From positions 1 to 44,797 of IMG/VR virus record IMGVR_UViG_3300023096_000008: a stretch of DNA of 44,797 bases; one strand, written 5' to 3'. Source of the DNA: a virus. Positions 3,061 to 25,621 of the stretch are shown here, one piece after another. The notes below the pieces were generated by a model. The model had not been told where the DNA came from. It searched no databases and was given only the letters and a program-made list of their open reading frames with translations. Every line of letters begins with the position of its first letter. Position 1 is the stretch's first letter. The position numbers and the translations under genes were made by a program.

Positions 3061-3061
3061 G

Positions 3062-4015: not shown

Positions 4016-4016
4016 A

Positions 4017-4032: not shown

Positions 4033-4051
4033 CCGAGATAATTGAATCGCG

Positions 4052-4081: not shown

Positions 4082-4113
4082 CGGCCCGCACCCTCAAACA
4101 GGAGCCAACGAAA

Positions 4114-5282: not shown

Positions 5283-5305
5283 CCCATAACTCACAAGGCA
5301 ACGCC

Positions 5306-8991: not shown

Positions 8992-10145
8992 TGGGAGAGG
9001 CGAAACCGACCTGGACGCAGAACAGGCACGAGTTCCTGCAGCTGGTGAACGCGGCCGGCGCAGCTGGCTGCAGGGCGCGCGGCGTGGCGTTCGGCAGCGC
9101 GTGCACGGCCATGCGTAGGCTGGGCTGGGTCGAGCAGATCCAGGCGATCGGGGTGAAGGTCCGCATTACTGACCTTGGCCGGCGCGCGCTGCAGGCGTGG
9201 GACGCCGGCGAGCGCCGCGACCTGGACCTGCGTACCGAGGAAGAGCGCACGGCCGTGACGCTGGCGCAGATCCTGGAGGCGTCGGCCGACTACAGCCTGG
9301 ACGAACGCCTGGTGAAAGCGCTGTTCCAGCGCATGCCGCTGCTGACCATTCACCGCCTGGTTTGGGAAAGCATGGAGGCGGCCGGGATCAATGACCGCGG
9401 CGCGGCTGCTCTGGCCGCGCTCAACGAGCTGGAATGCCCGGTGGACGGGTGCGGCAAGATGCCGGCCTATGTCTTTGCCGCCGCGGCCAGCGTTAAAGGG
9501 GGCGTAGTTTCCCACCAGGGCGGGATCGCCAAACCTTGCCAAGGCGATCAGATCCTGGAGCGCGGGGAAGAGGTGCTGCGAAAGGGTGATCCCCTGGAGC
9601 GGTTCCACCAGGGCGGCCTCGCCGGCAAGCTGCCGGAGGGGATCATCCCGCGGATCATTGAAACCGGGCAGGTGGTGCCGGCGACAGATCCGCGGCTCAC
9701 CGCTGCGGCGCCAGGCGCATCCAAGACCATCACCCTGGTTGTGGGTCAGCCCGAAGCAAAGAACATGGCGTTTCGAGAGCTGAAAAGGCTGTCCGCCAAT
9801 GTGGCCGAGCCAGTGCAGCCTGTAGAGCACGAAGATCCGCCGCCGGTAGAACATGAAGTCCGATTCCTGATCGACCTTCCGGCAACAAAGCCAGCCGCCG
9901 GTGGCTTGGCCAACCTGCTGGGCGGTGCTGACCGGTTCGTGCCCGACAGTTTCGCCAGCGATCGCCCTGCAGGCCAGGCCACGCCGCCGGCGGAGCTGCC
10001 GGACGTGCCGGCCGATGAGCAGGAAGACGACGACCGCCGCGTGCTGTGCCCGAAGTGCGAAGGCCGCGGATCCACCGGCCCGGCGCACCTGGACTGCACC
10101 AGGTGCAAGACGCGCGGGTATGTGTTCCGCACGGTGGAAATGTGA
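8988..10145 (+). CDS. Winged-helix and DnaJ-type zinc-finger protein
   Basis: A 385-residue protein. Residues 10-65 look like a winged helix (HEFLQLVNAAGAAGCRARG, ITDLGRRALQAW). The middle is helical, with a region from about 170 (GKMPAYVFAAAASVKGG) that contains no clear motif. The C-terminus has CPKCEGRGSTGPAHLDCTRCKTRGY, a CxxCxGxG...CxxCxxxG pair like the DnaJ Cys-rich finger. Some phage Q-type late antiterminators combine DNA binding with such a finger, and the gene lies shortly before the late genes, so that role is possible but unproved. The start overlaps the previous stop as ATGA. Confidence 0.65.
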   Translation: MMGEAKPTWTQNRHEFLQLVNAAGAAGCRARGVAFGSACTAMRRLGWVEQIQAIGVKVRITDLGRRALQAWDAGERRDLDLRTEEERTAVTLAQILEASADYSLDERLVKALFQRMPLLTIHRLVWESMEAAGINDRGAAALAALNELECPVDGCGKMPAYVFAAAASVKGGVVSHQGGIAKPCQGDQILERGEEVLRKGDPLERFHQGGLAGKLPEGIIPRIIETGQVVPATDPRLTAAAPGASKTITLVVGQPEAKNMAFRELKRLSANVAEPVQPVEHEDPPPVEHEVRFLIDLPATKPAAGGLANLLGGADRFVPDSFASDRPAGQATPPAELPDVPADEQEDDDRRVLCPKCEGRGSTGPAHLDCTRCKTRGYVFRTVEM

Positions 10146-10444
10146 GCCGGGGGACGAAGGTTGCCCGCATCTGTGCAGGCTGTGGCCGCGGCTACAGCGC
10201 ACTGCTGGTCGACCTGAAGCGAGGGTGGGGGAAGGTCTGCAGCCAGCGCTGCGGCGCGCGGGTGCGCCAGCGTGAGGTTGACCAGGAGCGTGCCCGCCGG
10301 GCGCGCAAGGCAGGCAAGCCAGCGCCGGCGCTCCTGCAGCAGCGACACCAGCAGATGGCCGCCGGCCGCCTGCAGGACATTGAGACAACGGCCGAGCTAC
10401 GCACCAGCGGGCCGGAATTCGATTTTTCAGAGGGGGTGCAGTGA
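10142..10444 (+). CDS. Small zinc-ribbon-like protein
   Basis: A 100-residue protein starting at GTG 10142 and overlapping the previous stop as GTGA. Near the N-terminus ICAGCGRGY...KVCSQRCGAR gives a CxxC...CxxxC pair separated by about 19 residues, a plausible zinc ribbon. A basic helix rich in Arg and Gln follows, with an acidic end. Possibly a small nucleic-acid-binding protein. No family recognised. Confidence 0.6.
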   Translation: MSRGTKVARICAGCGRGYSALLVDLKRGWGKVCSQRCGARVRQREVDQERARRARKAGKPAPALLQQRHQQMAAGRLQDIETTAELRTSGPEFDFSEGVQ

Positions 10445-10590
10445 TGCCAATGTGGATGAAAACGATTGCGTTGCAGGCGGCCATGTTCCTGGCGGGGTGG
10501 GCTTTTGCATGGCTTCTTCACCCGTATCCAGATGGGACCGACAACGCCACGCGGGTGTGGCGCCGGATCCGCCGCTGGTGGCTCGCATGA
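10444..10590 (+). CDS. Very small single-span membrane protein
   Basis: A 48-residue protein whose ATG shares a base with the preceding TGA. Residues 6-24 are hydrophobic (KTIALQAAMFLAGWAFAWLL). The tail is basic (RVWRRIRRWW), so the N-out/C-in topology is favoured. Its stop overlaps the next ATG as ATGA. Function unknown. Confidence 0.55.
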   Translation: MPMWMKTIALQAAMFLAGWAFAWLLHPYPDGTDNATRVWRRIRRWWLA

Positions 10591-11015
10591 TCGGTAGCAA
10601 GAAAGCCACCCGCGCCGAGTCGGCCCACATGCTGGCCTGTAAGAACGGCCCGTGCATTCCGTGCCTGGTCGGCGTCAGCACCGGCCTGATCGACCCACAA
10701 CACGCCATGCGTGGTGGCGAGGATGAGGACGGCATGCCGCTGCCCATGGTCACCTTCCAGCACTGCAAGAGCGGCAACATGCGCCGTGGCCACGAAGAGG
10801 GGTTTGGCTGCTGCATCTGGCACCACTTTGGAACCCAGCAGCTGCACATCCTGGGCATGAGCAAAGAGGCCGCCTATGAGCGGTGGGGGCCCAGCCTGTT
10901 CCACCAGGCCCGCGAGTTCCACCAGGTGTTCGGTTCGGACGATGAGCTGATCGAAGCCCAGCTGTTCGTCCTGCAGCAATCCGCTACCGGTGGTACGCTT
11001 TCCGCGGTTTCGTGA
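10587..11015 (+). CDS. Ref-like HNH/His-Cys nuclease
   Basis: A 142-residue protein matching the pattern of the P1 Ref (RecA-dependent nuclease) family: GPCIPC (Cys23, Cys26), FQHCKSGNMRRGHEEG (His59, His69), GCCIWHHFG (Cys75/76, His79, His80), then a helical end with GPSLFHQAREFHQVFGSDDELIE. Ref in P1 is an HNH-type enzyme that cuts RecA-coated DNA and boosts recombination. Here the first His of the usual His-His pair is replaced by Gln. It lies after the early genes and before the late activator. Fold fairly sure; RecA dependence inferred. Confidence 0.78.
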   Translation: MIGSKKATRAESAHMLACKNGPCIPCLVGVSTGLIDPQHAMRGGEDEDGMPLPMVTFQHCKSGNMRRGHEEGFGCCIWHHFGTQQLHILGMSKEAAYERWGPSLFHQAREFHQVFGSDDELIEAQLFVLQQSATGGTLSAVS

Positions 11016-11407
11016 AGCGAGCGGCGGCGATGGCACTGAAGATTCTTGATGACCTGGTGGACTTCATTGGGCACCAGCACGCCATCGAGCTGCTGAGGGC
11101 ATGGGGAGGTCGGCGCCTGAAGGTGCCGACCGAGATAGGCCAGGACCATCCTCTGGCGATGACCATAGGCCTGGATTCGGCGAAGGTGATGGCCACCTAC
11201 TACGGCGGCACGGAACTGTATCTGCCGGCGGAACGCAATTTCCTGATCGACCTGCGCAATGCGGCGATCGTGGCCAAGTTCAAGGGCGGCAGCAGCATCA
11301 CCAAGCTGTCGGAGGACTTCGGAGTCAGTCGCCGGCATGTCCACACCATCCTGGATGCCCTTGGCCAAGGCGAGAACCGCAAGGCCCGTGTGGCAACCCG
11401 CACCTGA
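11012..11407 (+). CDS. Mor-family transcription activator
   Basis: A 131-residue protein starting at GTG 11012 (GTGA overlap). It has the Mor/C layout: an N-terminal helical dimerisation part (LKILDDLVDFIGHQHAIELLRAWGG), a middle beta-strand part (GGTELYLPAERNFLI) and a C-terminal HTH at about residues 91-116 (KGGSSITKLSEDFGVSRRHVHTIL). In Mu, Mor and C switch on middle and late transcription. This gene is the last before the lysis genes, exactly where a late-gene activator would be expected. Confidence 0.82.
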   Translation: MKRAAAMALKILDDLVDFIGHQHAIELLRAWGGRRLKVPTEIGQDHPLAMTIGLDSAKVMATYYGGTELYLPAERNFLIDLRNAAIVAKFKGGSSITKLSEDFGVSRRHVHTILDALGQGENRKARVATRT

Positions 11408-11416
11408 TCTGACTGC

Positions 11417-11431
11417 CCTGTAGGGGCAACA
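11417..11431 (+). promoter_or_regulatory. Short inverted repeat before the lysis genes
   Basis: TGCCC and GGGCA flank a 5-base centre (TGTAG) between the activator gene and the endopeptidase gene. It could be the dyad bound by the Mor-like activator at a late promoter. No recognisable -35 is present nearby, as would suit an activated promoter. Weak evidence. Confidence 0.3.
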
Positions 11432-11460
11432 ATGCCGCCACTCAACATGGGGGCACCGCT

Positions 11461-11889
11461 TTGAACCTGAGCAAGAATTTCACGCTTGCCGAGCTGACCG
11501 TAACCAGGCACCCGCTTGGCAACACCCCCAACGCCACCGAGCGCGAAGCGCTTCGCCAGCTGGCCGTCCATATCCTGCAGCCGCTGCGCGAGTCTCTGGG
11601 CAAGCCCATCGTGGTGTCCAGCGGCTACCGCAGCGAAGCGGTGAACAAGGCCGTAGGCGGCGCCAGCTCCAGCCAGCACCGGCTTGGCCAAGCCGCTGAT
11701 ATCACCGTCCCGGGCATGACCAGCCGCCAGGTCGCCCAGGCAATCATCAGCATGGGCTTGCCCTATGACCAGGTCATCCAGGAGTTCGGCCGCTGGGTGC
11801 ACGTCAGCTATGGCCCGCGCAACCGCCGGGAAATCCTCACCGCCAAGACCATCGCCGGCAAGACTCAGTATCTGGCGGGCCTGGTGTGA
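11461..11889 (+). CDS. M15-family peptidoglycan endopeptidase (endolysin)
   Basis: A 142-residue peptidase M15A-type protein. SSGYRSEAVNKAVGGASSSQHRLGQAADI supplies the zinc ligands His73 and Asp80. QEFGRWVHVSYG gives the likely catalytic Glu108 and the third ligand His114. Family members cut peptide cross-links of peptidoglycan. There is no signal peptide, so it should need a holin. The only start in place is TTG 11461, behind a G-rich stretch. It is followed at once by a holin candidate. Confidence 0.93.
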   Translation: MNLSKNFTLAELTVTRHPLGNTPNATEREALRQLAVHILQPLRESLGKPIVVSSGYRSEAVNKAVGGASSSQHRLGQAADITVPGMTSRQVAQAIISMGLPYDQVIQEFGRWVHVSYGPRNRREILTAKTIAGKTQYLAGLV

Positions 11890-12362
11890 TGGCCGCCGAG
11901 AAAGCCGCCGGCATCCTGGTGACCGTCGCCGCTGGCGTGCCGGCGTTCCTCTCCGGCCTGTCCAACGACATGACCGTCCCCATCATCGGCGTGGGCGCAA
12001 CCACGATCGTGGGCGCTGCGCTGGGCACCCTCGCCGCCCTGGGCTATGACAACAACCCGCCGCGGCCTGGCGGGCGCCTGGTCGTGCGCGCGCTGTCGAC
12101 CATCATCATGGCCAGCCTGCTGGTCGGCGGCGTGCCAGCGATCGCTGGCTGGACGTGGGACACCCCCGCGGCCGAAGGTGCGGTGACCGGCCTGGTGGCG
12201 ATCGCCGTCTATTACCTGTTCGACCCGGTCAAGGCCTGGGCACTGGCTCAGGTCAGTGAATTCAAGCTGTCCGACTTCATCCCCTGGCTGCGCAAGCGCA
12301 CGCCCACCACACCGACGGCCGGGCAGAATGCCCCGACCGACGAAGAGAGCCACAAGCCATGA
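11889..12362 (+). CDS. Holin candidate, four predicted membrane segments
   Basis: A 157-residue protein with ATG at 11889 (TGATG with the endolysin stop). Hydrophobic segments lie at about residues 7-24, 30-52, 66-90 and 98-114 (GAVTGLVAIAVYYLF), followed by a charged cytoplasmic-type tail. The position directly after the endolysin and before the spanins makes a holin role the best reading. The number of spans is more than the usual two or three, so it may instead be one half of a holin pair with the next gene. Confidence 0.7.
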   Translation: MAAEKAAGILVTVAAGVPAFLSGLSNDMTVPIIGVGATTIVGAALGTLAALGYDNNPPRPGGRLVVRALSTIIMASLLVGGVPAIAGWTWDTPAAEGAVTGLVAIAVYYLFDPVKAWALAQVSEFKLSDFIPWLRKRTPTTPTAGQNAPTDEESHKP

Positions 12363-12787
12363 ATGCCTGGTACCTGATCGCTGCACCCGCCTGGTTCGTC
12401 CTGTTCGTCACCGCCTGCGCACGACTGGCAGACATGGATCGCACGCAATGGGCCGGTACCGACCACGTTCGCCGCCTTGGCATGATCGGGGTGGGCGGCA
12501 TGGCCATCATCATGCTCGCCATGCCATTCACGAAGGATGGGTGGATCTACCCCAGCGCGACCTGGCGAACGGCCGGCCTGTCCTGGTCCTGGGCGCTGGT
12601 GTGGCTGACGACCCCGGGCATGCCGCCGTGGTGGGACTTCATCCTGGGCGTGCACCGCCGCACCGACGACTGGAAGCACCAGGGCTTGCGCACCAGGGTG
12701 CGGGGCGAATGGCGCGCGCTGCGGGACAGCTTCCGCCCGCGCCGCAGCCGCAAGCCGATGAGTGGCCCGATAGGTCCGCTGCCGTAA
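12359..12787 (+). CDS. Membrane protein of the lysis cassette
   Basis: A 142-residue protein overlapping the previous stop as ATGA. Three hydrophobic stretches are visible: WYLIAAPAWFVLFVTACARL (residues 4-23), LGMIGVGGMAIIMLAMPF (about 40-57) and TAGLSWSWALVWLTT (about 71-85). A strongly basic C-terminal tail follows (RRTDDWKHQGLRTRVRGEWR). It may be a second holin or antiholin. The assignment rests on location and topology only. Confidence 0.65.
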   Translation: MNAWYLIAAPAWFVLFVTACARLADMDRTQWAGTDHVRRLGMIGVGGMAIIMLAMPFTKDGWIYPSATWRTAGLSWSWALVWLTTPGMPPWWDFILGVHRRTDDWKHQGLRTRVRGEWRALRDSFRPRRSRKPMSGPIGPLP

Positions 12788-12814
12788 CCGTTGACCGGAT
12801 CCAGGCGGCGCACC

Positions 12815-13294
12815 ATGCTGCGCGAACCCACCGCCTGGATCCTCGCCATGATCGAAACACCGCCGACCTGGGCCGCTCGCAACGCGGCCCGTATTGCCAT
12901 CTGGATCCTGCTGGCCATCCTGGCCACCGTCGCTGTACTGCAGATCCTCACCTGGCGCCGTGACGCCCAGGACAACGCCGCCGCCATCGATGCGCGCGAT
13001 GCCACCGCAACCGCCGCCGGCGGAATCACCGCCGACCTGGCCACCACCACCACCGACCGCCAGCGCGTCGAGGTCCGCATCACCGCGGATGCCCGGCAGA
13101 TGGCCATTGACCTGGAGACGCTGCGCCGTGAGAACCCCGACCTGGATCATTGGCTGCGCACTGACGTGCCTATGCAGCTGCGCGACCTCGCCCGCCAACG
13201 ACGCGAAGCCCGCGACCGACTTGGAAGTACTCCGCCTGGGAGTGCAGCAGCTGACGCGGGAGCGCCAGCCGCAGGGAGCGGTGACGCGCGCTGA
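12815..13294 (+). CDS. Rz: Rz-like inner-membrane spanin
   Basis: A 159-residue protein with one N-terminal transmembrane segment (AARIAIWILLAILATVAVLQIL) followed by a long charged periplasmic helix (TDRQRVEVRITADARQMAIDLETLRRENPDLDHWL) and an Ala/Gly/Pro-rich end. This is the plan of an i-spanin. Possible starts are TTG 12791, ATG 12815 and ATG 12848. None has a strong Shine-Dalgarno; 12848 would give the most compact N-terminus. It overlaps the Rz1-like gene in another frame, as in lambda. Confidence 0.8.
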   Translation: MLREPTAWILAMIETPPTWAARNAARIAIWILLAILATVAVLQILTWRRDAQDNAAAIDARDATATAAGGITADLATTTTDRQRVEVRITADARQMAIDLETLRRENPDLDHWLRTDVPMQLRDLARQRREARDRLGSTPPGSAAADAGAPAAGSGDAR

Positions 13295-13517
13295 AGATGC
13301 GAAGGATGGCCAGGAGGCGTTCGGCCTGCTGATCGCCCTGGAGGACACCAACTGGCTGCAGAACGATGACAAGCGGCGCACCCGCGAGTTCGTCAACACC
13401 GCGACCAGGCGCATCGAGCTGTCGCGGCTTCCGACCTGCAGCTGGTGGCAGTGGCGGTGCATCCGCGATCGCAACCGCCTGCAGCGCCAGATTGACGCCC
13501 CGGCCGCAGGTCCGTAG
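13128..13517 (+). CDS. Rz1: Rz1-like outer-membrane lipoprotein spanin (overlapping frame)
   Basis: A 129-residue product read one frame off from Rz, from GTG 13128. It begins MRTPTWIIGCALTCLCSC, a short signal peptide with a lipobox-like LCSC, then ATSPANDAKP. Processing at the Cys would give an outer-membrane lipoprotein. The remainder is polar, with a WW-containing TCSWWQWRC segment. It shares 167 bases with Rz. Lambda Rz1 is only 60 residues, so this one is long, but it continues past the end of Rz with no rival frame. Together the pair should join inner and outer membranes in the last step of lysis. Confidence 0.75.
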   Translation: MRTPTWIIGCALTCLCSCATSPANDAKPATDLEVLRLGVQQLTRERQPQGAVTRAEDAKDGQEAFGLLIALEDTNWLQNDDKRRTREFVNTATRRIELSRLPTCSWWQWRCIRDRNRLQRQIDAPAAGP

Positions 13518-13616
13518 GATCCGCGTTGTCGGGCTCCGGCGGCAGGTTGGTATGGGAATGGCTCCCTGCTGCCGGGCCTGGCCAGCACTCCAGTGAGCGA
13601 TGGGAGCCGCGGATCC
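13517..13616 (+). ncRNA. Possible structured RNA element after the lysis genes
   Basis: Nested complementary arms: GGATCCGC (13517-13524) with GCGGATCC (13609-13616), GGCTCC (13532-13537) with GGAGCC (13603-13608), and GGCGGCAGG (13538-13546) with CCTGCTGCC (13565-13573, one G-U). This gives a bulged closing stem of 14 pairs around at least one internal hairpin. No tRNA-like features are present. It could be an RNA fold or a DNA-level site. Speculative. Confidence 0.35.
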
Positions 13617-13676
13617 GGAGGGCGAACCGGATCCAAGCCAACGGGGTGCCACCCTGCGGCCCAAGGTGATAGGCCG

Positions 13677-13709
13677 AAAACCCCCGGAGGGCGACCCCCG
13701 GGGGTTTTT
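13677..13709 (+). terminator. Rho-independent terminator after the lysis cassette
   Basis: CCCCCGG (13681-13687) pairs with CCGGGGG (13698-13704) around a 10-base loop. AAAA precedes and TTTTT (13705-13709) follows. This is a textbook terminator for rightward transcription leaving the lysis genes. Confidence 0.88.
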
Positions 13710-13790
13710 CGTTGTAGGATTGCCCGGCAGCGTTCCCCACGCTGTTGGCCAGATCCCCCTGGCTGGCGACTGTCTCAGCAACGGCCGCCT

Positions 13791-13830
13791 GAAGCCCCGC
13801 CCGCTCCCCCAGCTGGCGGGGCTTCTTCTT
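13791..13830 (+). terminator. Second terminator-like hairpin
   Basis: GAAGCCCCGCC (13791-13801) and GGCGGGGCTTC (13815-13825) form a perfect 11-bp stem followed by a T-rich TTCTT. It lies about 80 bases behind the first terminator, so the region acts as a tandem stop between the early/lysis and the structural transcription units. Confidence 0.75.
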
Positions 13831-13975
13831 TCTGGCGTGCACGTTTCGGCCGCCACCACATACGCTTTTCTCGATTTTTTTGCCGGATATCGGCTTTCCG
13901 CGCACGGAATCGGCCATCCCGCGAACAGCCCCGGCCGTACACTCCCCGCGTCACCCACCCGCGAGGAACGCCGAC

Positions 13976-14704
13976 ATGGCGAGGAAGAGCAAACCCAATC
14001 CCTGGAAGAGCCGCATTGTCGGTGAGGCCGAGGTTCCGGCCGACCAGCTGCTGGCCAACCCTGAGAATTTCCGCGTGCACAGCACTGAGCAAGGCGCCGC
14101 CCTGGACGGTGCGCTGAACAGCATCGGCTGGATCCAGCGCGTGATCGTGAACAAGCGCACCGGCCACGTAATTGATGGCCACCTGAGAGTTCAGCGCGCG
14201 CTGCGCCGCGGCGAGTCGGTACCGGTGGTCTACGTCGACCTGTCCGAGAACGAAGAGCGCATCGCCCTGGCCACGCTGGACCCGATCGCCGCGATGGCCG
14301 GTACCGACGATCAAATGCTCGAGCAGCTGCTGGGTGAGATAACCGCCGACGATGCGGATCTGCTGGAGTTCCTGGCCAGCCTGCATCCTCAGTCCGGTGA
14401 CGGTGGCGGTGGCAGCTCCACGCCGGCCGAAGCGATCACCGTGTGGGGCGAAATCATCAACCTTGGCCAGCACCGGCTGCTGTGTGGCGACATTGAGGAT
14501 GAATCGCACCAGCTGGCCGTTACAGCCGGAATGCCTGGCGCAACCATTCGGGACTTTGCCGACCTGGCGATTTTGCCCCTGACGGTGAAGAGCAACCCCG
14601 CGCAGCTGTTCGTGATCCATAGCGACCCCTTTGCCATTGACGGCCTTGTGATGGCCTGGGAATCGGCCACTGGCAAGACTTCCGAGCGAATCCCCCCGGG
14701 TTAA
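13976..14704 (+). CDS. ParB-like nuclease-domain protein, apparent remnant of a ParB-methyltransferase
   Basis: A 242-residue protein, start fixed by GAGGAA 9 bases before ATG 13976. Residues 15-110 form a ParB N-terminal domain (VPADQLLANPENFRVHSTEQGAALDGALNSIGWIQRVIVNKRTGHVIDGHLRVQRAL, VPVVYVDLSENEE). Then VWGEIINLGQHRLLCGDI matches the entry to the methylase half of phage ParB-DNA methyltransferase fusions. The end, SDPFAIDGLVMAWESATGK, resembles the last helix of such methylases. The catalytic core between them, including any DPPY motif, is missing. It is probably not a methylase now; the ParB domain may still bind or cut DNA. Confidence 0.8.
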   Translation: MARKSKPNPWKSRIVGEAEVPADQLLANPENFRVHSTEQGAALDGALNSIGWIQRVIVNKRTGHVIDGHLRVQRALRRGESVPVVYVDLSENEERIALATLDPIAAMAGTDDQMLEQLLGEITADDADLLEFLASLHPQSGDGGGGSSTPAEAITVWGEIINLGQHRLLCGDIEDESHQLAVTAGMPGATIRDFADLAILPLTVKSNPAQLFVIHSDPFAIDGLVMAWESATGKTSERIPPG

Positions 14705-14717
14705 GAGCAAAGCCGAT

Positions 14718-14747
14718 TTGCTAATCCCGTTAGCGTCCTGATACATT
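14718..14747 (+). promoter_or_regulatory. Rightward promoter for the 14834 gene
   Basis: TTGCTA (14718-14723), an 18-base spacer and TACATT (14742-14747) with TGA before the -10. It is almost the same as the early promoter at 4052-4081, including CCTGATACA at the -10. An inverted repeat GCTAA/TTAGC (14720-14734) overlaps the -35 and spacer and could be an operator. Confidence 0.6.
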
Positions 14748-14786
14748 CCGCTTGCCCGCACAGGGCACGTCCGGGAAGAGCAAAAA

Positions 14787-14837
14787 ATGAAACGCTGCCC
14801 GAACGCCATCACACGAACGGAGAAAAACGCACCATGA
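14787..14837 (+). CDS. Possible 16-residue leader peptide
   Basis: A short frame MKRCPNAITRTEKNAP begins at ATG 14787, behind a GGAAGAG stretch. Its stop overlaps the ATG of the next gene as ATGA. This is the overlap style of true genes here, so it may couple translation to the 14834 gene. It is too short to judge by coding bias. Confidence 0.3.
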   Translation: MKRCPNAITRTEKNAP

Positions 14838-15550
14838 GCAAACAGTCGCCCCTGTCCCTGTTGGGTTACCCCGGTATGGAACCCGAGTTCACCCTGGCCG
14901 ATGGCCGCACCATTCCCGCCGGCGATCTGATCGGCGAACACGCCTTGCCGCTGTACCACAAGGCCAATCCCGGCTTGGATCAGTCCCAGCTGCAGGCCGC
15001 GTGGAACGGCCTCACCAACGCCGAGCGCACCGGCTTCTGCATCCAGGCGTTCGACAAGCTGGATGCAGCTTCCGAGCAGTCCGCAGCCTATGACGCCCAG
15101 CGCACGCTGATTACCGATATCGCGCCGAAGGCCGAGCTGCAGCTGGGCGATGGGATCCTGGACGTGATCGTTCAGGCCATGCAGCGCCTGCGCGCCCCGT
15201 GGCACATGCTGCGCGAGGACGAACAGGATGAGATCCTGGAGTTCGTCACCGCCCGCGTGCGTGGCGTAGCGAAAGACACGGTGCGCACGTTGGCCGCCCG
15301 CGGTACCCACCACATCGTGGCAACGCTGGATCAGATCACGATCAAGAAGGGCGCCAAGCTGGTGCTGTCCATCCAGGCCGCTCAGATTGACGAACACCTG
15401 ACCGAGTCGGTGCAGCAGCAGGTGATCCTGGTGCTTGCGCCGGCGCTGGATGAAGCCGAGGCCATCGAGCCGCCGCCGGCGGATCCGCAACAGAAGGGCC
15501 TGCAGCTCGATGCCAGCAACGGCGTGCAGCACAGCGACCCGGAGGACTGA
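14834..15550 (+). CDS. Hypothetical protein upstream of terminase
   Basis: A 238-residue, mostly helical protein. The N-terminal part (FTLADGRTIPAGDLIGEHALPLYHKANP) is followed by a helical region and a well-formed core, LRAPWHMLREDEQDEILEFVTARVRGVAKDTVRTLAARG, then HIVATLDQITIKKGAKLVLSI. It ends in a Pro/Gln-rich acidic tail. Similar proteins occur near phage terminases, but I do not recognise a named family. It has its own promoter and GGAG upstream. Confidence 0.75.
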   Translation: MSKQSPLSLLGYPGMEPEFTLADGRTIPAGDLIGEHALPLYHKANPGLDQSQLQAAWNGLTNAERTGFCIQAFDKLDAASEQSAAYDAQRTLITDIAPKAELQLGDGILDVIVQAMQRLRAPWHMLREDEQDEILEFVTARVRGVAKDTVRTLAARGTHHIVATLDQITIKKGAKLVLSIQAAQIDEHLTESVQQQVILVLAPALDEAEAIEPPPADPQQKGLQLDASNGVQHSDPED

Positions 15551-18216: not shown

Positions 18217-19737
18217 ATGGCCACTGAAACCCCCGAAACCCCCAAGCGGCCGAGCGCCGAGGAATACGCCAAGTTCGGCCGCGGCGGCGGCCTGGTCGGC
18301 TCGCCGTTCGTGGAGCTGATGCAGCCCACCGACCCGATCCTGGTCAGCAAGGGCGCCCGGGATTACAAGCTGTACCGGGAGACGCTACGCGACGACCAGT
18401 GCGCCGCCACCTTCGCCGATCGTCGCCTGGCGGTGACCTCGAAAGAATGGATCGTGGACGCTGCCAGCGAGGATCCCCTGGACGTAGCCGCGGCCGACGA
18501 CCTGCGCGAGCAGCTGCAGCGCATCGGCTGGGATCGCGTCACCGACGGCATGCTCTACGCCCGCTGGTATGGCCACGCCGTGGCGGAATGCATGTACGCC
18601 CCGTCTGGCGATCGCGTGGAGCTGACCGGCATCAAGGTGCGCAACCGCTCGCGCTTCCTGTACGGCACCGACGGCAGCGTGTGGCTCCTGAGCAAGACGG
18701 GCCAGTGGGAGCGCATGCCGGACCGCAAATTCTGGACGGTCAACGTCGGCGCCGACAACGACGATGAACCGTTCGGCCTGGGCCTGGCGCACTACTGCTA
18801 CTGGCCGGTGTTTTTCAAGCGCAACGACCTCAAATTCTGGCTGGTGTTCGTGGAGAAGTTCGGCGCCCCGACGGCGATCGGCAAGATCCCGGCTGGCAAG
18901 TGGAAGGATGAAGAGCTGAAAGACGCCGTCCTGGAAGCGCTGCTGCAGTTCAGCAGTGAGGCCGCCATCGTGGTGCCGGCCGAAACCACGGTGGATCTGC
19001 TGGAGGCCGCGCGATCGGGCACCGGCACCTATGGCGACCTGTACGACAAGATGGACGCAGCGCTGGCCAAGGTCATCATCGGCCAGACCGCCAGCAGCGA
19101 GGGCACGCCCGGCAAGCTGGGCAACGAGAACCTGCAGGCCCAGGTGCGCGACGACCTGGTCAAGGCCGATGCAGACCTGATCTGCGGCAGCTTCAATGAC
19201 CAGGTGGCGCGCTGGCTCACGGAATGGAATTTTCCAGGCGCCCGCGTGCCCAAGGTGTGGCGCAAGGTCGAGCCCGATGAGGATCTGTCGGCGGCCGCCG
19301 AGACGGATACGAAGATCAAGGCGCTTGGCTTCAGCCCCACCGAGGAATACATCAAGTCGCGGTATGGCGACCATTGGGAAAAGGCCGAGCCCATCAACCT
19401 GGGCGCCGGGGACGGTTCGTTCCGGGCGCAGCCTGGCCCTCTCGATGCCGCGGCCGACTTCGCCGAGCTGGGCGCCATCGGCGTGCTGCGCGCCGGCAAG
19501 CGAGCTGACCAGCAGGTGATTCTGGAGGCCGCCCAGGTGCTGGCCAGGCGGACGGACGCCGTCGGCGATCGCGTGGCGCAGATCGTGGCGTATGGCGAAG
19601 AGACGGGCGATTTCGCCACCATGCAGGTGCGCCTGGCTGAAATGGCGGCCGAGCTGCCGAGCCAGCGGGCCGTGGAGCAGATCCGCAACACCAACGTGGT
19701 CGCCAGGCTGCTGGCCCGCTGGAGGGGCAACGAGTGA
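18217..19737 (+). CDS. Portal protein, DUF935 (Mu gp29-like)
   Basis: A 506-residue protein with clear DUF935 features: YKLYRETLRDDQCAATFADRRLAVTSKEW, DGMLYARWYGHAVAECMY, YCYWPVFFKRNDLKFWLVFVEKFGAPTAIGK, and KVIIGQTASSEGTPGKLGNENLQAQVR. Twelve copies should form the portal ring for DNA entry and tail attachment. AAGGA precedes the ATG at 18217. It lies between TerL and the gpF-like gene, as in Mu-type head modules. Confidence 0.95.
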   Translation: MATETPETPKRPSAEEYAKFGRGGGLVGSPFVELMQPTDPILVSKGARDYKLYRETLRDDQCAATFADRRLAVTSKEWIVDAASEDPLDVAAADDLREQLQRIGWDRVTDGMLYARWYGHAVAECMYAPSGDRVELTGIKVRNRSRFLYGTDGSVWLLSKTGQWERMPDRKFWTVNVGADNDDEPFGLGLAHYCYWPVFFKRNDLKFWLVFVEKFGAPTAIGKIPAGKWKDEELKDAVLEALLQFSSEAAIVVPAETTVDLLEAARSGTGTYGDLYDKMDAALAKVIIGQTASSEGTPGKLGNENLQAQVRDDLVKADADLICGSFNDQVARWLTEWNFPGARVPKVWRKVEPDEDLSAAAETDTKIKALGFSPTEEYIKSRYGDHWEKAEPINLGAGDGSFRAQPGPLDAAADFAELGAIGVLRAGKRADQQVILEAAQVLARRTDAVGDRVAQIVAYGEETGDFATMQVRLAEMAAELPSQRAVEQIRNTNVVARLLARWRGNE

Positions 19738-21257
19738 ACCTCGCGCGCCAGGTGCTGGAGTTCCTGGACGTGCCGACCGCATCGTCCTGGGATATGCCGC
19801 CGCAGCAGGCCCTGGACTTCTTCCGGGCCAAGGGCCTGCGGACCACGTTCAACTGGCAGGAAATGGTCGGCGACGAACACGCCCGCGCCTTCACGATCGC
19901 CAAGATGATGGACACGGATCTGCTGTCCACCGTCCAGCAGAGCCTGGAGGATGCACTGGCCAAGGGTGTGCCGTTCAAAGCCTGGATGGATGACCTGGTG
20001 CCCACCCTGCAGGCGAAGGGGTGGTGGGGTAAACAGCTGGTCGACGCCCCGGGCGGCCGGCAGATGACGGCCCAGCTTGGTAGCCCTGCCCGCCTGCAGA
20101 CGATCTACCGCACCAATATGCAAAGCGCCTACGCCAGCGGGCAGTGGGACGATATCCAGGACCAGGCCGAGCTGGCGCCGTTCCTCATGTACGACGCGGT
20201 GGATGACCTGCGCACCAGGCCCGAGCATCGCTCCTGGGATGGCGTGGTGCTGCCGATCAGTGATCCGTGGTGGCAGACGCACTACCCGCCAAACGGGTGG
20301 AACTGCCGCTGCAGCGTGATCCAGCTCTCCCAGGATGACCTGGACGATATGGGCCTGGTCGTCAGCAAGCGGCCGAAGGGAGGCACCTACACCTGGACCA
20401 ACCCGACCACCGGCAAGGCGGAGAAGGTTCCCGCCGGCGTGGATCCGGGCTGGCAGACCAACGTCGGCGAGGCCCGCAACAAGGCGCTGGCCAAGACCCA
20501 GGCCGAGAAGCTGCAGAGCTACCCGGAGGCCATTCGATCGAGCGCCGCCAAGGGGCTGGAGGCAGCAGCTGCAGCCGGCAAGGAAGTGGCCGCGGCCGCC
20601 GGCGGGAGCAAGCGCACCGGCCTGGCCAGCACCGGCCTGGTCAAGGGTGCCGACAAGGCAGCACAGCGCGCGGCACAGCGCGCCATCACCACCGCCCTGG
20701 AGGCACGCACGCCCTACCTGGCGCCAGCCCTGCGCGCGCTGCAGGCTACGCCAGCGGGCCGCGGCATGGTGCCGGCGCAGCAGCTGCAGGCGGCCAAGGC
20801 GCAGGCCACCCGGGCCGAGCAGCAGGCCGGCCTGGCCGACTACCGCAAGGCGTACCTGGCCAACAAGAAACCCAGCGCGCGCGCCCGGGCTGCATTCGAC
20901 GCCCTGCCGGACGATGCCCAGGCCGCATTGCGCTCCACGATGGACGCCAAGCGCACGGACAGCGCGCTGCAGGACGCCGCAGACGCAGAGCTGGGGGATA
21001 TCCGCGCTCTACCCGTAGGAAGCCCGCAGCGGGCCGCTCTGGAGGCCGTGGAGTCGTGGGCGGATGACTTGGCCAAGCCCACCGAGCTGCTGGCCGCGGT
21101 CATGGTGGAACTGAAGTCGGCCGGGTCGCGCCAGGCGCTGGCCGCATCGCTCCAGTCCGAGCTGCGGGAAGCGCTGGCCGCCGCCGGCGTTGACCTGTCC
21201 GAAGAGGCGCTGCAGGCGCTGGTCGCACGCATCGCTGCAGGCCGTGGCCTGGTGTAG
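19734..21257 (+). CDS. Minor head protein (Mu gpF / SPP1 gp7 type)
   Basis: A 507-residue protein starting at GTG (GTGA overlap with the portal stop). The family core is seen in FKAWMDDLVPTLQAKGWWGK, TIYRTNMQSAYASGQWD, and RSWDGVVLPISDPWWQTHYPPNGWNCRCSVI. The C-terminal 200 residues are an Ala-rich helical extension. These proteins sit inside the head near the portal. Rightward genes stop here, and the next 4 kb is read the other way. Confidence 0.92.
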   Translation: MNLARQVLEFLDVPTASSWDMPPQQALDFFRAKGLRTTFNWQEMVGDEHARAFTIAKMMDTDLLSTVQQSLEDALAKGVPFKAWMDDLVPTLQAKGWWGKQLVDAPGGRQMTAQLGSPARLQTIYRTNMQSAYASGQWDDIQDQAELAPFLMYDAVDDLRTRPEHRSWDGVVLPISDPWWQTHYPPNGWNCRCSVIQLSQDDLDDMGLVVSKRPKGGTYTWTNPTTGKAEKVPAGVDPGWQTNVGEARNKALAKTQAEKLQSYPEAIRSSAAKGLEAAAAAGKEVAAAAGGSKRTGLASTGLVKGADKAAQRAAQRAITTALEARTPYLAPALRALQATPAGRGMVPAQQLQAAKAQATRAEQQAGLADYRKAYLANKKPSARARAAFDALPDDAQAALRSTMDAKRTDSALQDAADAELGDIRALPVGSPQRAALEAVESWADDLAKPTELLAAVMVELKSAGSRQALAASLQSELREALAAAGVDLSEEALQALVARIAAGRGLV

Positions 21258-21347: not shown

Positions 21348-21767
21348 TTAGGCCAGCAGCCCCTGCGCCCAAGCCTTCACTGAGCGGGCCAGTTTCCTGG
21401 TGCGTTCCGAGTCGCTGTGCCCACACTTCACGACACTGGCCATAGAGGTCTGAAGTTCATCCACCGCCCTGGCCAGCGCATCGTCCCGGCTATCCCCTCG
21501 CGCCATCCTGGTGAGCATCAGCGGGGACATGCGGCCCGTGTCACCCAGGTGGTAACTGGTCGAGTAGATCCAGCCGAACGCCGGAACGTGCAGCAGATCT
21601 ATTTCGGCCAAGGGCATGGCGTGCTGGCCACGTCCGCCAGGTCGACCGCTGGGCAGCGTCAGCGTTTCGTCTGGCTCCAGGTAGACGCCGTGTGCGTTCG
21701 GCGCCGGCGGTGCGCCCAGCGATCGGTGTTCGCGTTCGGTGAACAGCTGCAGCTGGTCGACGGTCAT
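21348..21767 (-). CDS. Hypothetical protein, last gene of the reversed cluster
   Basis: A 139-residue protein with ATG at 21767, behind a GGGGGA stretch and overlapping the upstream gene as ATGA. The first half is beta-rich (GVYLEPDETLTLPSG, MPLAEIDLLHVPAFGWIYSTSYHLGDTGRMS) and the second half helical (RDDALARAVDELQTSMASVVK). No catalytic motif is clear. It is followed at once by the terminator. Function unknown. Confidence 0.65.
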   Translation of the reverse strand: MTVDQLQLFTEREHRSLGAPPAPNAHGVYLEPDETLTLPSGRPGGRGQHAMPLAEIDLLHVPAFGWIYSTSYHLGDTGRMSPLMLTRMARGDSRDDALARAVDELQTSMASVVKCGHSDSERTRKLARSVKAWAQGLLA

Positions 21768-21928
21768 CGGCGTTCCCCCACAAGGCTGGCCACGGCATCG
21801 TGGTCGCGGTGGAACCGCAGCAGCTCCAGCGCGCGGCGCGGCGTGTAAGCCCGAGTGCGCAGATCCGGTGCCCGGCGCGTGCCGGCGTACCACCAGGATC
21901 CGATGCGGGCAATGTGCGGCTTGCTCAT
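21764..21928 (-). CDS. Small basic protein
   Basis: A 54-residue, Arg-rich protein (SKPHIARIGSWWYAGTRRAPDLRTRAYTPRRALELLRFH). The ATG at 21928 overlaps the upstream stop as ATGA, which fixes the start better than an ATG 11 codons earlier. Basic and aromatic, perhaps nucleic-acid binding; no family recognised. Confidence 0.6.
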   Translation of the reverse strand: MSKPHIARIGSWWYAGTRRAPDLRTRAYTPRRALELLRFHRDHDAVASLVGERR

Positions 21929-22566
21929 GGCAGGTAGTCCGGTGCGCCGGCGGCGCGGCAAAGGGAACAGGTGGTGATGCGGCCCGCTGGCACAAGCCGC
22001 GGGGCCGGTTCGGGATTGCGCGAAGGGCCGGGCTCACGGAGGCAGAAGGAGCAGGGCCAGGGAACCAGGCGGAGCATGGGCGGCCCTTGCCGCGCCTCGC
22101 CAGCGCAGTTAAATCCGAAATCGCCAGGCACCCATTGGTAACCCTTTGGCGCCGGCCTGGCCGCCAGTTCCTCGCGCTGCAGGCGGTACTGCCGTTCCAG
22201 GCGCTCATGCACCTGGGTGGCGGTTTCGCTGGCCAGGTCGACGTCATCCTCGATCGTGAAGCCTGGGCAGATGACCCCGAGCGCCTGCAGGGTGTCGTCG
22301 GGCGCGCGGTAGCTCACGGTAGCGCCAGCCAGCTGCAGGCCGCGGGCTGGGTGGGAGAACGGCCGCACGGGGTACGTGCGCATCTGCCTGGCCAGATCCT
22401 TCAGGCTGACCAACGATGCGGCGTTGGCCTTGCGCATCCTGGCGAACAGGCCAGTCAGGTGGCCAATGGAATCCATCATGTCGTCATGCCGGCGCCGCAG
22501 GCGGGCCCGGGCGATCGCCGCGTATGCCTTGCGCGCCGCCTTGGCGCGGATCATGCGGCGGTTCAC
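21925..22566 (-). CDS. Hypothetical protein with C-terminal Cys pairs
   Basis: A 213-residue protein. The basic helical N-terminus (MNRRMIRAKAARKAYAAIARARLRRRH) is followed by a mixed core (PARGLQLAGATVSYRAPDDTLQALGVICPGFTIEDDVDL) and a helix (VHERLERQYRLQREELAA). The C-terminus has CSFC and CSLC about 28 residues apart, a likely zinc ribbon. It is the largest gene of the reversed cluster and is coupled both ways by ATGA. No family recognised. Confidence 0.65.
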   Translation of the reverse strand: MNRRMIRAKAARKAYAAIARARLRRRHDDMMDSIGHLTGLFARMRKANAASLVSLKDLARQMRTYPVRPFSHPARGLQLAGATVSYRAPDDTLQALGVICPGFTIEDDVDLASETATQVHERLERQYRLQREELAARPAPKGYQWVPGDFGFNCAGEARQGPPMLRLVPWPCSFCLREPGPSRNPEPAPRLVPAGRITTCSLCRAAGAPDYLP

Positions 22567-22958
22567 TCTTCACCCCGCAGCGCGCCCGGCGGGCATACAT
22601 CGGCGTTGCCCATGCTGGTCAGGATATCCAGCGTCTGCGCGTCACTCCCCTGGTACAGCAACAGGCCCGGCAGGTCGGTGGTGCTTGCGATCGGCGGCGG
22701 CGTGTCGTCATGAAGCCCGAGCCTGGCGAATTCGACCTGGTCGACCGACCACCGCAGCTGTGCGCGGGCAGCACGAATGCCGCGCGCAGCCTTGGAACGC
22801 TGGTCGATCGGAGCCGCGGCAAAGCTCTGGCCATACACCTTGCCGTTACTGCAGCGACGGAACAGATGCCAGTGAACGCACCCGTCCGGATCCACGCGGC
22901 GCGACCAGCCGAACAGACGGCTTTTGCATGCCCGGGCGGTTGTCGGCAGGCGCTTCAT
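22563..22958 (-). CDS. Hypothetical protein
   Basis: A 131-residue protein, basic in its first half (KSRLFGWSRRVDPDGCVHWHLFRRCSNGKVYGQSF) with an ordered-looking strand and turn pattern. It is followed by a helix (SKAARGIRAARAQLRWSVDQVEFARL) and an acidic end. Both ends overlap neighbours as ATGA. No family recognised. Confidence 0.62.
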   Translation of the reverse strand: MKRLPTTARACKSRLFGWSRRVDPDGCVHWHLFRRCSNGKVYGQSFAAAPIDQRSKAARGIRAARAQLRWSVDQVEFARLGLHDDTPPPIASTTDLPGLLLYQGSDAQTLDILTSMGNADVCPPGALRGEE

Positions 22959-23305
22959 GCCGCACCGCCGATCGATGCCGAGGCGATCGCCGCCAGGCCG
23001 GCCACCAGCGCCAGGAAGAGCAGCGCCAGCGTGCAGCGCTCCATGTATCGATTGGCCGCCCGGCGGGCCGTGCGCAGCTCGATGCGGGCGGCGAGGTCGT
23101 CATCCTGCCGCAGCGAGGTCAGCCGGTACCGGATCCCGCCAATGCGCGCGCGGTACAGGCTGCGGCGCTGCGACAGCACGACGGAGCGGCTGATCTGCCC
23201 GGTGACGCTGGCCGCCTGCTGGGCGCTGGGGCCGATGCGCTTCAGCGCCATGCCCAGCTTCTTCATGGCTTCCGCCGGATCCGGGGAAGAGGTTTCGTTT
23301 GCCAT
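22955..23305 (-). CDS. Tail-anchored membrane protein
   Basis: A 116-residue protein. The polar N-terminal 85 residues are rich in Arg, Gln and Ser (helical, SQRRSLYRARIGGIRYRLTSLRQ). One C-terminal hydrophobic span follows (CTLALLFLALVAGLAAIASASI). GGAG lies 8 bases upstream of ATG 23305. It should be inserted in the inner membrane by its tail. Function unknown; exclusion or host-takeover roles are possible but unsupported. Confidence 0.65.
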   Translation of the reverse strand: MANETSSPDPAEAMKKLGMALKRIGPSAQQAASVTGQISRSVVLSQRRSLYRARIGGIRYRLTSLRQDDDLAARIELRTARRAANRYMERCTLALLFLALVAGLAAIASASIGGAA

Positions 23306-23308
23306 TGG

Positions 23309-23713
23309 TCACTCTCCAGTGAGTCGAACAATCAGGTACATCGTTTGGTTATCCATGCCGGTGCGGACGTCCAGCATCACGCGGCCAAGGCGATCAGCCG
23401 CCGGCACGTCCAGGCGGATAGATTCGGCCCCATTGTTGGAGCGGCGGCGCCGAATCGTTTCGGCCTGGATGGCGTGCCACAGCGCTCTCATGCGCATGCC
23501 CCGGGCGTGGTGTTCCGAGTTCAGCAGGCGCTTGCGGGCGCGCGAGCCGATGACGGCGTCATAGACCGAATCCGTCATGTACGCCGGCACGGTGAAGCCC
23601 ACCCAGCTGGCAAAGGTGGTCGAGTCGATCAGATCCCCGCGCGCGACCATTTCCTCAACCGTCGCCGGCTTGGCCAGGGACTTCAGCAGCGCATCGAGGT
23701 CAGATGCCGCCAC
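23309..23713 (-). CDS. Hypothetical protein
   Basis: About 134 residues from GTG 23713, which has a GGGG stretch upstream; a TTG at 23731 would add six residues. It contains DALLKSLAKPATVEEMVARGDLIDSTTFASW, then a basic helical part (IGSRARKRLLNSEHHARGMRMRALWHAIQ) and a C-terminal strand pair (VMLDVRTGMDNQTMYLIVRLTG). It ends just before the membrane-protein start. No family recognised. Confidence 0.62.
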   Translation of the reverse strand: MAASDLDALLKSLAKPATVEEMVARGDLIDSTTFASWVGFTVPAYMTDSVYDAVIGSRARKRLLNSEHHARGMRMRALWHAIQAETIRRRRSNNGAESIRLDVPAADRLGRVMLDVRTGMDNQTMYLIVRLTGE

Positions 23714-23864
23714 GGTGGACCCCGAAGCCAAGGCGGCGGGCCAGTGCGCGCACGCGCTGCCACGCGGTGGGAGGCTTCGCCGGCGGACGGCGCACCGGTA
23801 CCGGCAACGGGCGCATGGCCAGTTCCCTGTTGGCCACCGCCTCGCTGCGGTTGCGGCGGCTCAC
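23700..23864 (-). CDS. Small very basic protein
   Basis: A 54-residue product from GTG 23864 (GTGA overlap with the upstream stop): SRRNRSEAVANRELAMRPLPVPVRRPPAKPPTAW and on. It is rich in Arg and Pro. A rival frame in the same stretch (23683-23871) lacks the overlap and is less protein-like. Called mainly from the coupling pattern of its neighbours. Confidence 0.5.
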   Translation of the reverse strand: MSRRNRSEAVANRELAMRPLPVPVRRPPAKPPTAWQRVRALARRLGFGVHRGGI

Positions 23865-24340
23865 TCGCCACGCTCCAGCAGCTGCAGGGCGTTGGTGATT
23901 TCAGCGTGTGTCGCTTCCTGGATCAGCTGGGCCGTCTGTTTGTCGTGCAGGGTGCGATTGATCGAGTCAGCCGCGCGCTGCAGGGCATAGACCGCCTGCG
24001 CCAGCGACTTCTGCGGGATGGCCACGTATGCCGGCAGCTCGCGCCCAATGGTCGAGCTGGAGCGCTCCACGCTCAGGTACATGGTGGCGCTGTAGATATC
24101 GTGGGTGACGCCACCGCCGATATCGTCGGTCGGCAGCACGGCTTCAGGCAGCGCGTGCCAGTCCGCGGCGCCGACCCGCAACAGCGGCAGCGGTGCCGGC
24201 GCCGGCAGATCCTTCTGAATGCAGGCGCTGCACAACTCCACATCAACCCAGGTGCAGCCGCCCATGCAAGCGCAGGTGTCTGTGCAGCCGCAGCCACGGC
24301 AGCGCCAGTCTTTGGTGTCGGTGGGGTGCGGGGCGCTCAT
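23861..24340 (-). CDS. Cys-rich N-terminal zinc-finger protein
   Basis: A 159-residue protein. The first 40 residues hold WRCRGCGCTDTCACMGGCTWVDVELCSACIQ, a dense Cys cluster with a CxWV...LCSxC pattern seen in several phage early proteins and likely to bind zinc. The rest contains beta strands (THDIYSATMYLSVERS) and helices (KSLAQAVYALQRAADSINRTLHDKQ). It is coupled to both neighbours. Function unknown. Confidence 0.7.
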   Translation of the reverse strand: MSAPHPTDTKDWRCRGCGCTDTCACMGGCTWVDVELCSACIQKDLPAPAPLPLLRVGAADWHALPEAVLPTDDIGGGVTHDIYSATMYLSVERSSSTIGRELPAYVAIPQKSLAQAVYALQRAADSINRTLHDKQTAQLIQEATHAEITNALQLLERGE

Positions 24341-24459
24341 CGGGTCGGCTCCTGGGCAGGGCGCACGCGGCGCGGGCGCTGGGCTTCCATGCGCGCACGG
24401 CGCGCGGCCTGGATGGCCAGCAGTTCGGGACGGGAACGGCGGATGGCTTGGATACGCAT
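24337..24459 (-). CDS. Tiny Arg-rich peptide
   Basis: A 40-residue peptide from ATG 24459 (MRIQAIRRSRPELLAIQAARRARMEAQ), a basic helix. AGGAG sits 7 bases upstream, one of the better Shine-Dalgarno sites of the cluster, and its stop overlaps the next ATG as ATGA. These signals support it as a real gene despite the size. Confidence 0.55.
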   Translation of the reverse strand: MRIQAIRRSRPELLAIQAARRARMEAQRPRRVRPAQEPTR

Positions 24460-24463
24460 GGGT

Positions 24464-24739
24464 CTACTCCTGATCGAGGGGTGGCAGCTCATCAATGAAG
24501 GCCTGCACCCGAGCGGCGCGGCGTTCGTATTCGGTCACACGGCCCGCATGCCTGGCGGCCTCGCGGGTGTCACGCGCCTTGGCGGCGTTGTCGCTGGTCA
24601 CCTTCGCCCGGATGGCCAACGAAGCCCAGCAGTCACGCGAGCCGGCGAACGCGCGGTGCAGCAGCTTCAAGCTGTCCTGATCGGCCAGCATCAGCGTGAC
24701 CTGCGCCGGCGTAGCCTGCATGCTCTTGGGCCTGGCCAT
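24464..24739 (-). CDS. Small helical hypothetical protein
   Basis: A 91-residue helical, basic protein (ARPKSMQATPAQVTLMLADQDSLKLLHRAFAGSRD, DNAAKARDTREAARHAGRVTEYERRAARVQAFIDEL). The ATG at 24739 shares its A with the preceding stop. No family recognised. Confidence 0.62.
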   Translation of the reverse strand: MARPKSMQATPAQVTLMLADQDSLKLLHRAFAGSRDCWASLAIRAKVTSDNAAKARDTREAARHAGRVTEYERRAARVQAFIDELPPLDQE

Positions 24740-25068
24740 CACATCACCCGCTGGCGGTTGGCCAGCAGCAGCTGCCGGGCAGGTTCGGGAAGCATTTCCC
24801 AGGCGCGGCGGTGTTCGGCCTGCTGGCATGCCTCGCGCGCGGCGTCCTGGTTCGCGCAGTGGCGCAGCGGCGTCACCACGTCCCGCGGCGGTCCACCCCA
24901 GCTGCTGGACTTGTGGACCGCGGACGCCACATAGACGTCATCCAGCGGATCCACCCGGTACGAAACCCCGCGCGCCGGCGTGGTGCCGAACATCGAGGGA
25001 CCGCCGTTGGCCAACACCCAGCGGATGGGCTCGCCGACACTGATCGGCGGTGCATTCTTGTCGCTCAC
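24739..25068 (-). CDS. Hypothetical protein
   Basis: A 109-residue protein from GTG 25068, overlapping the upstream stop as GTGA. It contains a beta-type first half (ISVGEPIRWVLANGGPSMFGTTPARGVSYRVDPLDDVYVASAV) and a helical end (REACQQAEHRRAWEMLPEPARQLLLANRQRV). A longer reading from 25254 lacks start support. No family recognised. Confidence 0.6.
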   Translation of the reverse strand: MSDKNAPPISVGEPIRWVLANGGPSMFGTTPARGVSYRVDPLDDVYVASAVHKSSSWGGPPRDVVTPLRHCANQDAAREACQQAEHRRAWEMLPEPARQLLLANRQRVM

Positions 25069-25175
25069 AGGCACCCCCAGGCGGCAGTGACCGCCCATGC
25101 GACGGTCACCATGTCGATGATGGCCAGCACCGCCACCAGGGCGGCGCGACCGTTGTTGTGCGGGCGGCGGCTCAC
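25065..25175 (-). CDS. Tiny single-span membrane protein
   Basis: A 36-residue peptide from GTG 25175. It has a short basic start (SRRPHNNGR), then a hydrophobic segment (AALVAVLAIIDMVTVAWAVTAAWGCL) that fills the rest. It overlaps both neighbours as GTGA, which is hard to explain by chance. Function unknown. Confidence 0.55.
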   Translation of the reverse strand: MSRRPHNNGRAALVAVLAIIDMVTVAWAVTAAWGCL

Positions 25176-25426
25176 AGCTCGAACGCCAGGCTGAAGGAGT
25201 GCAGGGTGTCCGGGTCGGTCGCGTCGACCGGGCCCAGGTAGATCGCGGCGTCATAGCTCTCCTGGACGATCACCTGCGGATCAATGACGCCTTCCGACAG
25301 GGCCCAATCACGCACATGGGTACGCACCGCTTCAGCCGGCATGCTGCCGTAGTTGGCGCGGTTCACGAACATCTGGCCGTCGGCGGCAATCTGGCGGGAG
25401 TCGGTGCGGAGGACGGTGGCGAACAT
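25172..25426 (-). CDS. First gene of the reversed cluster, hypothetical
   Basis: An 84-residue acidic protein (MFATVLRTDSRQIAADGQMFVNRANYGSMPAEAVRTHVRDWALSEG), with a strand-rich end (DPQVIVQESYDAAIYLGPVD). AGGAG is 8 bases upstream, and the promoter at 25471-25499 lies about 45 bases further, so this is the promoter-proximal gene. No family recognised. Confidence 0.68.
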   Translation of the reverse strand: MFATVLRTDSRQIAADGQMFVNRANYGSMPAEAVRTHVRDWALSEGVIDPQVIVQESYDAAIYLGPVDATDPDTLHSFSLAFEL

Positions 25427-25470
25427 GGTTGCAGCTCCTGGGAAAGTGGCCGGGCGTGGCCACGGGATTT

Positions 25471-25499
25471 AATGTAATGGAACTATCCATCCGATGCAA
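25471..25499 (-). promoter_or_regulatory. Promoter of the reversed cluster
   Basis: On the minus strand: TTGCAT (25499-25494), a 17-base spacer and TACATT (25476-25471) inside a local AT-rich stretch. The -35 lies in TGTTGCATC, the same nine bases as at the recombination-operon promoter. A dyad CCGAT/ATCGG (25491-25509) spans the -35 and could be an operator. Confidence 0.7.
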
Positions 25500-25536
25500 C
25501 AGGTATCGGAAAGAAATTTGATCGAGGGGTGATTCA

Positions 25537-25557
25537 GGCCCCTGACTGTGGGGGGCC
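25537..25557. other. Hairpin between divergent transcription units
   Basis: GGCCCC (25537-25542) and GGGGCC (25552-25557) can pair around a 9-base loop. No T-run follows. Its use is unclear; it lies in the leader of the rightward protease gene and upstream of the leftward promoter. Confidence 0.35.
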
Positions 25558-25621
25558 ACACCTTCACGGGCCTTGCCGCTGCTGGGAAGATGCTCGCCGA
25601 CTACCCGCGCGAGCCCATCCA

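Follow-up and report, generated by a model that had tools for sequence, protein, structure and literature searches.

We identified 13 leftward (minus-strand) open reading frames (ORFs), g1 to g13, which tile positions 21348-25426 of the window, as we call the complete IMG/VR virus record analysed here (44,797 bases). The block is flanked by gpF (19734-21257) and by the protease gene (ATG at 25621), with an intergenic region (25427-25620) on the protease side. A reversed cluster of 13 genes between gpF and the protease, made up of small genes joined by ATGA/GTGA overlaps, had been described in an earlier sequence-only reading. Such 4-base overlaps occur at eight of the 12 junctions in the block, and the g3/g4 overlap is one base. 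The products are 36-213 amino acids (aa) long.

The closest relatives of the window in the databases are the Stenotrophomonas phages Suso, StM171 and QH16 and the Xanthomonas phage HXX_Dennis. All are siphophages, and StM171, Suso and HXX_Dennis have been proposed as the genus Nordvirus (PMC10747581). The group further contains four contigs, two from IMG/VR and two that had been binned into bacterial metagenome-assembled genomes (MAGs).

The first gene, g1 (84 aa; 25172-25426), is 67-70% identical across the Nordvirus group and is absent from QH16, G001 and G004, where an unrelated 163-aa gene (Q40) is carried. Orthologue comparison places five further genes in the core: g2 (36 aa; 25065-25175), a single-pass membrane protein; g4 (91 aa; 24464-24739), which is helical; g7 (54 aa; 23700-23864), which is very basic; g9 (116 aa; 22955-23305), with a C-terminal membrane anchor; and g10 (131 aa; 22563-22958). 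Small membrane ORFs resembling g2 were seen by eye in two deeper relatives, L124 and L127. The core protein g6 (159 aa; 23861-24340) has an N-terminal zinc-ribbon-like motif, CxxCGCTDTxxCxGGCxW...LCSAC, and this zinc-type pattern of six cysteines recurs in other phage proteins, some of which have a winged-helix-like tail. The core protein g8 (134 aa; 23309-23713) evolves fast between species and is predicted to have an alpha/beta fold. The last gene, g13 (139 aa; 21348-21767), is the best conserved in the block (65-72% identity, dN/dS about 0.2-0.3).

The remaining genes are more variable. The accessory gene g3 (109 aa; 24739-25068) has a 47% identical homologue in the L124 block and no match in a search of the phage collection. 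For the basic protein g5 (40 aa; 24337-24459), orthologue comparison revealed no clear homologue in relatives, which have a 59-aa membrane protein in its place. The accessory protein g11 (213 aa; 21925-22566) has C-terminal cysteine pairs, and its similarity to QH16 is confined to a 32-residue patch. The basic accessory protein g12 (54 aa; 21764-21928) shows a weak 31-residue similarity in G002, and the phage collection search returned no match. The zinc-type (g6), basic (g5, g7, g12) and membrane (g2, g9) proteins announced by the sequence-only reading are thus all present.

Nine block families (g1, g2, g4, g6-g10 and g13) occur in the same order among the orthologues in Suso, QH16 and StM171. 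This ordered conservation, together with a third-position excess and dN/dS values below 1 in most pairwise comparisons, indicates that the block genes are real. The constraint on g13 is about that on the terminase. The genes g4, g8, g9 and g10 diverge fast between species, and some of their dN/dS values lie near or above 1, where dS is unreliable. On the strand opposite to the block, an ORF of 852 aa (22376-24934, plus strand) is open in the window and broken in Suso and StM171; as it is not kept open in these phages, we regard it as an artefact of G+C content.

Promoters and transcript signals around the block

The block has a promoter and a terminator of its own, as had been claimed from the sequence. 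The predicted leftward promoter (25471-25501, minus strand) consists of a TG, TTGCAT (25499-25494), a 17-bp spacer and TACATT (25476-25471), the last fitting the -10 form nAnnnT, and it is conserved at the same place in all nine genomes. Alignment of the divergent region of these genomes revealed a conserved GTTGCATCG element that, read leftward, is followed at a distance of 17 bp by a TAnnAT-like box. A generic sigma-70 scan of the window missed this promoter. At the other end, a predicted intrinsic terminator, AAGCCCCGGATTCCCGGGGCTTTTTT (stem 21308-21287, minus strand), would stop leftward transcription before gpF.

The same promoter pattern, TG TTGCAT N17 CATTAT, precedes the ERF/exonuclease/SSB recombination operon (3974-4004, minus strand). 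The consensus TGTTGCAT-N17-nAnn[A/T]T has exactly two sites, one before the block and one before the ERF operon, in each of five genomes (window, Suso, QH16, StM171 and G003). It has one site in G001, where the ERF copy carries one change, TATTGCAT. The expectation is 0.06 sites per shuffled genome, an indicative value since the pattern was composed after the sites had been seen, and the genomes are related, so that their counts are not independent. With a looser pattern, one TTGCA[T/A] promoter-like site was found at the place of the block in each of L124, L132 and L125, and none was found in L127, which is a point against an early operon. The paired sites in the five genomes support the assignment of the block and the ERF operon to the same predicted promoter class, in line with the earlier proposal that the two are under the same control. 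An inverted repeat, GGATGCAA-N5-TTGCATCC, lies at 3990-4020 of the window, overlapping the ERF promoter at its -35 box. It is a possible operator candidate; the full repeat is not kept in relatives.

Between the block promoter and the ribosome-binding site lies a leader stem-loop, GTGGCC-ACGCCC-GGCCAC (25446-25463, minus strand), for which the statistics are weak. The leaders of relatives form comparable small hairpins of different sequence. We considered this hairpin as a regulatory RNA and mention it only in passing, as its folding does not clearly surpass that of shuffled sequences (z about -1 to -2); the combined p of 0.002 comes from leaders that are not independent.

On the opposite strand, a predicted protease/capsid promoter (25546-25591, plus strand) was assigned by its match to a dyad class: CTGTGG-N4-CCACACC, 23 nt, then GAAGAT. 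The general form, [GC]TGnGG-N4-CCnCACC with a -10-like box 23 nt further on, occurs before the protease gene and before the lysis genes, and the lysis-side dyad (window 11388) sits at the end of a Mor-like gene. The dyad is also found upstream of the portal gene (window 18134), in the window and in QH16. In phage Mu, the activator of middle transcription, Mor, binds a dyad, which makes the rightward dyads candidate sites for the Mor-like protein of this phage; by this analogy, the dyad at the protease and lysis genes is probably a Mor-type late site. Given the leftward TTGCAT promoter and the rightward dyad, the intergenic region 25427-25620 seems to hold back-to-back early and late promoters, both predicted. 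Early timing of the block is likely, judging by its promoter class.

Inheritance and gene turnover

The block is found at the identical place and in the identical orientation in all eight close relatives (the G001 contig stops within gpF). The blocks of Suso (CPT_Suso_008-018), StM171, HXX_Dennis and QH16 share with that of the window their position, strand, gene order, nine families, promoter and leader, and differ in that g3, g5, g11 and g12 stand in the window in place of other genes. The capsid protein and the terminase served as queries to recruit deeper relatives, in three of which (L124, L132 and L127) a block again has this place and orientation. Among these, L124 (70% terminase large subunit (TerL) identity) has in common with the window block g3, g8, a g4-like gene, the N-terminus of g11 and two others. 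L132 (TerL 57%) and L127 (major capsid protein 44%) carry different leftward small genes in the gpF-protease interval. In the L127 block, positions 2746-5876 (minus strand) encode a C5 DNA methyltransferase, an adenine DNA methyltransferase and one more ORF of early type; a DUF3268 zinc protein also belongs to this block.

The block is absent from L006, which has the same head genes and stands nearest outside the group (48% gpF identity); there, gpF is followed directly by the protease and capsid genes. Mu and B3 have the same order of gpF, protease and major head protein as the window, and in contrast to it have no genes in the gpF-protease interval besides G, with one tiny ORF in B3. The comparison of this interval in related phages, proposed with the earlier reading, thus yielded presence in all close relatives, absence from L006, Mu and B3, and other contents elsewhere.

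The continuous head operons of L006, Mu and B3 might suggest that the block was acquired recently, as a foreign island or a moron cassette found in the window phage alone. This is contradicted by the synteny that eight close relatives and deeper lineages share with it, and its codon-position composition matches that of the rest of the genome; we consider a recent origin extremely improbable. As judged from its distribution, the block is old and inherited by the whole lineage, and its description as 'inserted' is misleading.

Gene content within the block has changed nonetheless. Suso and StM171 belong to one species according to PMC10747581, and their block proteins have a median identity of 90% versus 97% for proteins encoded elsewhere (p 0.002). 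Their blocks also differ by missing and replaced genes, so that gene turnover in the block occurs even within one species. The same test of block against remaining genes reached no significance in the other close pairs. In terms of orthologue content, the block is a stable core (g1, g2, g4, g6-g10 and g13) with swapped accessory genes, and about nine genes recur.

Searches for function

Scans of ten block proteins (g1, g3, g4, g6 and g8-g13) against Pfam, PHROGs, NCBIfam and PADLOC gave sub-threshold chance matches only, and a PDB sequence search with g6, g8, g11 and g13 returned nothing credible. The claim that none of the genes is recognised therefore stands as regards function and fails as regards homologues, which published phages carry as hypothetical proteins. 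The consulted parts of the Suso, StM171 and QH16 descriptions give no function for the block. The orthologues of g13 in QH16 and StM171 (L003 38092-38490 and L004 31138-31536) are labelled '5-formyltetrahydrofolate cyclo-ligase'; this assignment found no support here, as g13 of the window has no such match in Pfam/NCBIfam, in PDB sequences or by fold. AlphaFold2 models were obtained for g13 (pLDDT 70) and g8 (pLDDT 83) from just five sequences each, and Foldseek found no match for either at E <= 0.001. Structure prediction, which the sequence-only reading had suggested for the 139-residue g13 among others, thus gave no match for either product.

No head or tail structural family was matched by the ten scanned proteins in Pfam, PHROGs or NCBIfam, nor by g6, g8, g11 and g13 in the PDB. 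These results bear on the possibility that the genes encode late accessory proteins of the head or virion and lie by chance on the other strand, as their position within the head operon might suggest. The opposite strand, the separate terminator, a promoter without the late dyad and the absence of structural matches all argue against it, and Mu, B3 and L006 make the same head type without the block genes. We consider a virion role very unlikely, in line with the earlier reading, which had treated the cluster as non-structural.

Alternatively, the block may be a relocated extension of the recombination operon, made up of ordinary early replication or recombination helpers or of modifiers of host metabolism. 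The promoter class common to the ERF operon is consistent with this, as are the strong conservation of g13 and the L127 block, with its methyltransferases, DUF3268 zinc protein and early-type ORF. However, the ten scanned window genes match no known replication family, membrane and very small basic proteins would be atypical of such a set, and genes are swapped within a species. We regard this explanation as rather unlikely.

The gpF-protease junction and the proposed role of the block

The assumption that Mu-type head modules are continuous at this place does not always hold. JBD30 and DMS3 carry an anti-CRISPR (acr) gene and a winged-helix-turn-helix (HTH) gene at the equivalent junction, after gpG (AcrF1 function, PMC11445458; accessory region G, PMC4378225). 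In L047, a Mu-headed prophage, the gpF-protease junction (9205-14897) encodes a PDC-S06-like AAA_13 ATPase, a SRAP protein and an OLD-like ATPase, and the ATPases match defence models. The same junction of L075 (9945-10840) has a capH/capP-like pair of an HTH protein and an IrrE-type peptidase, and L018 (8900-10024, minus strand) has a RelA/SpoT-domain protein between gpF and the protease. Such contents, like the L127 methyltransferases, indirectly favour a role in host interaction for the window block. Accessory or early genes set between head genes in this way are a known kind of arrangement. In a survey with a home-made profile, the junction measured 0.4-1.6 kb in most of 38 loci versus about 4.4 kb here; these statistics are partial, as the protease was located in only 38 of 80 loci. 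These data suggest that, in Mu-type head operons, conflict genes generally settle at the gpF/G-protease junction and could be mined there by position alone.

It is conceivable that the block is specifically an anti-defence island that corresponds to the anti-CRISPR locus of Casadabanvirus, with most products inhibiting host immunity. Like the acr-aca locus of JBD30 and DMS3, it occupies the equivalent junction, ahead of the protease gene, and consists of small variable genes, here family-less and partly swapped, and the L127 block contains DNA methyltransferases. However, the acr-aca locus follows gpG and comprises two genes co-directional with the head genes, one of them an HTH regulator, whereas the window block follows gpF on the opposite strand; no sequence similarity between the two was found. 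A search of the ten scanned proteins in Pfam and NCBIfam for an Aca-type HTH regulator gave no match that passed the cut-off (only HTH_65, E 0.1, for g11). In addition, known families are unmatched, and a nine-gene core is stable across lineages, which acr loci are not. We therefore consider a purely anti-defence island possible and somewhat doubtful. Since no block protein has a functional match, the anti-defence reading depends on where the block lies and on a single distant relative, L127; a role in anti-defence or host takeover is plausible by analogy.

The ERF-type promoter shared with the recombination operon, and the different dyad promoter of the late genes, make the block most likely a second early operon. 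We favor, with some confidence, an early leftward operon within the late head operon. Under this proposal, host RNA polymerase would transcribe the 13 overlapping small genes soon after infection, from a promoter with the -35 octamer and 17-bp spacing of the recombination operon. Leftward transcription would be halted by the terminator ahead of gpF, and a Mor-type activator would later fire the divergent protease/capsid promoter. More tentatively, the products, both core and swapped, may be small non-virion effectors that redirect host functions or weaken host defences. The slow evolution of g13 fits a core phage function better than an arms race and counts against this proposal. The earlier interpretation, an early host-takeover or anti-defence set, is retained in its shared control and non-structural nature and abandoned in its notion of an insertion.

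The block is a compact, conserved set of about nine families of uncharacterised function whose timing of action is predicted. This is a reason to test its products as host-takeover or anti-defence proteins, in phages already in culture against an antibiotic-resistant opportunist. It is less probable, though worth stating, that these uncharacterised families form a lineage-wide, multi-gene early operon devoted to disarming defences, which sits where Mu-type head operons have a hot spot for cargo and has a core set of its own and not single borrowed inhibitors.

The gpF proteins of the deeper relatives L124 (1965-5249), L132 (7735-11778) and L135 (13200-17267) have very long C-terminal extensions, for a total of about 1100-1350 aa. 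By eye, these extensions are reminiscent of MuF polymorphic toxins.
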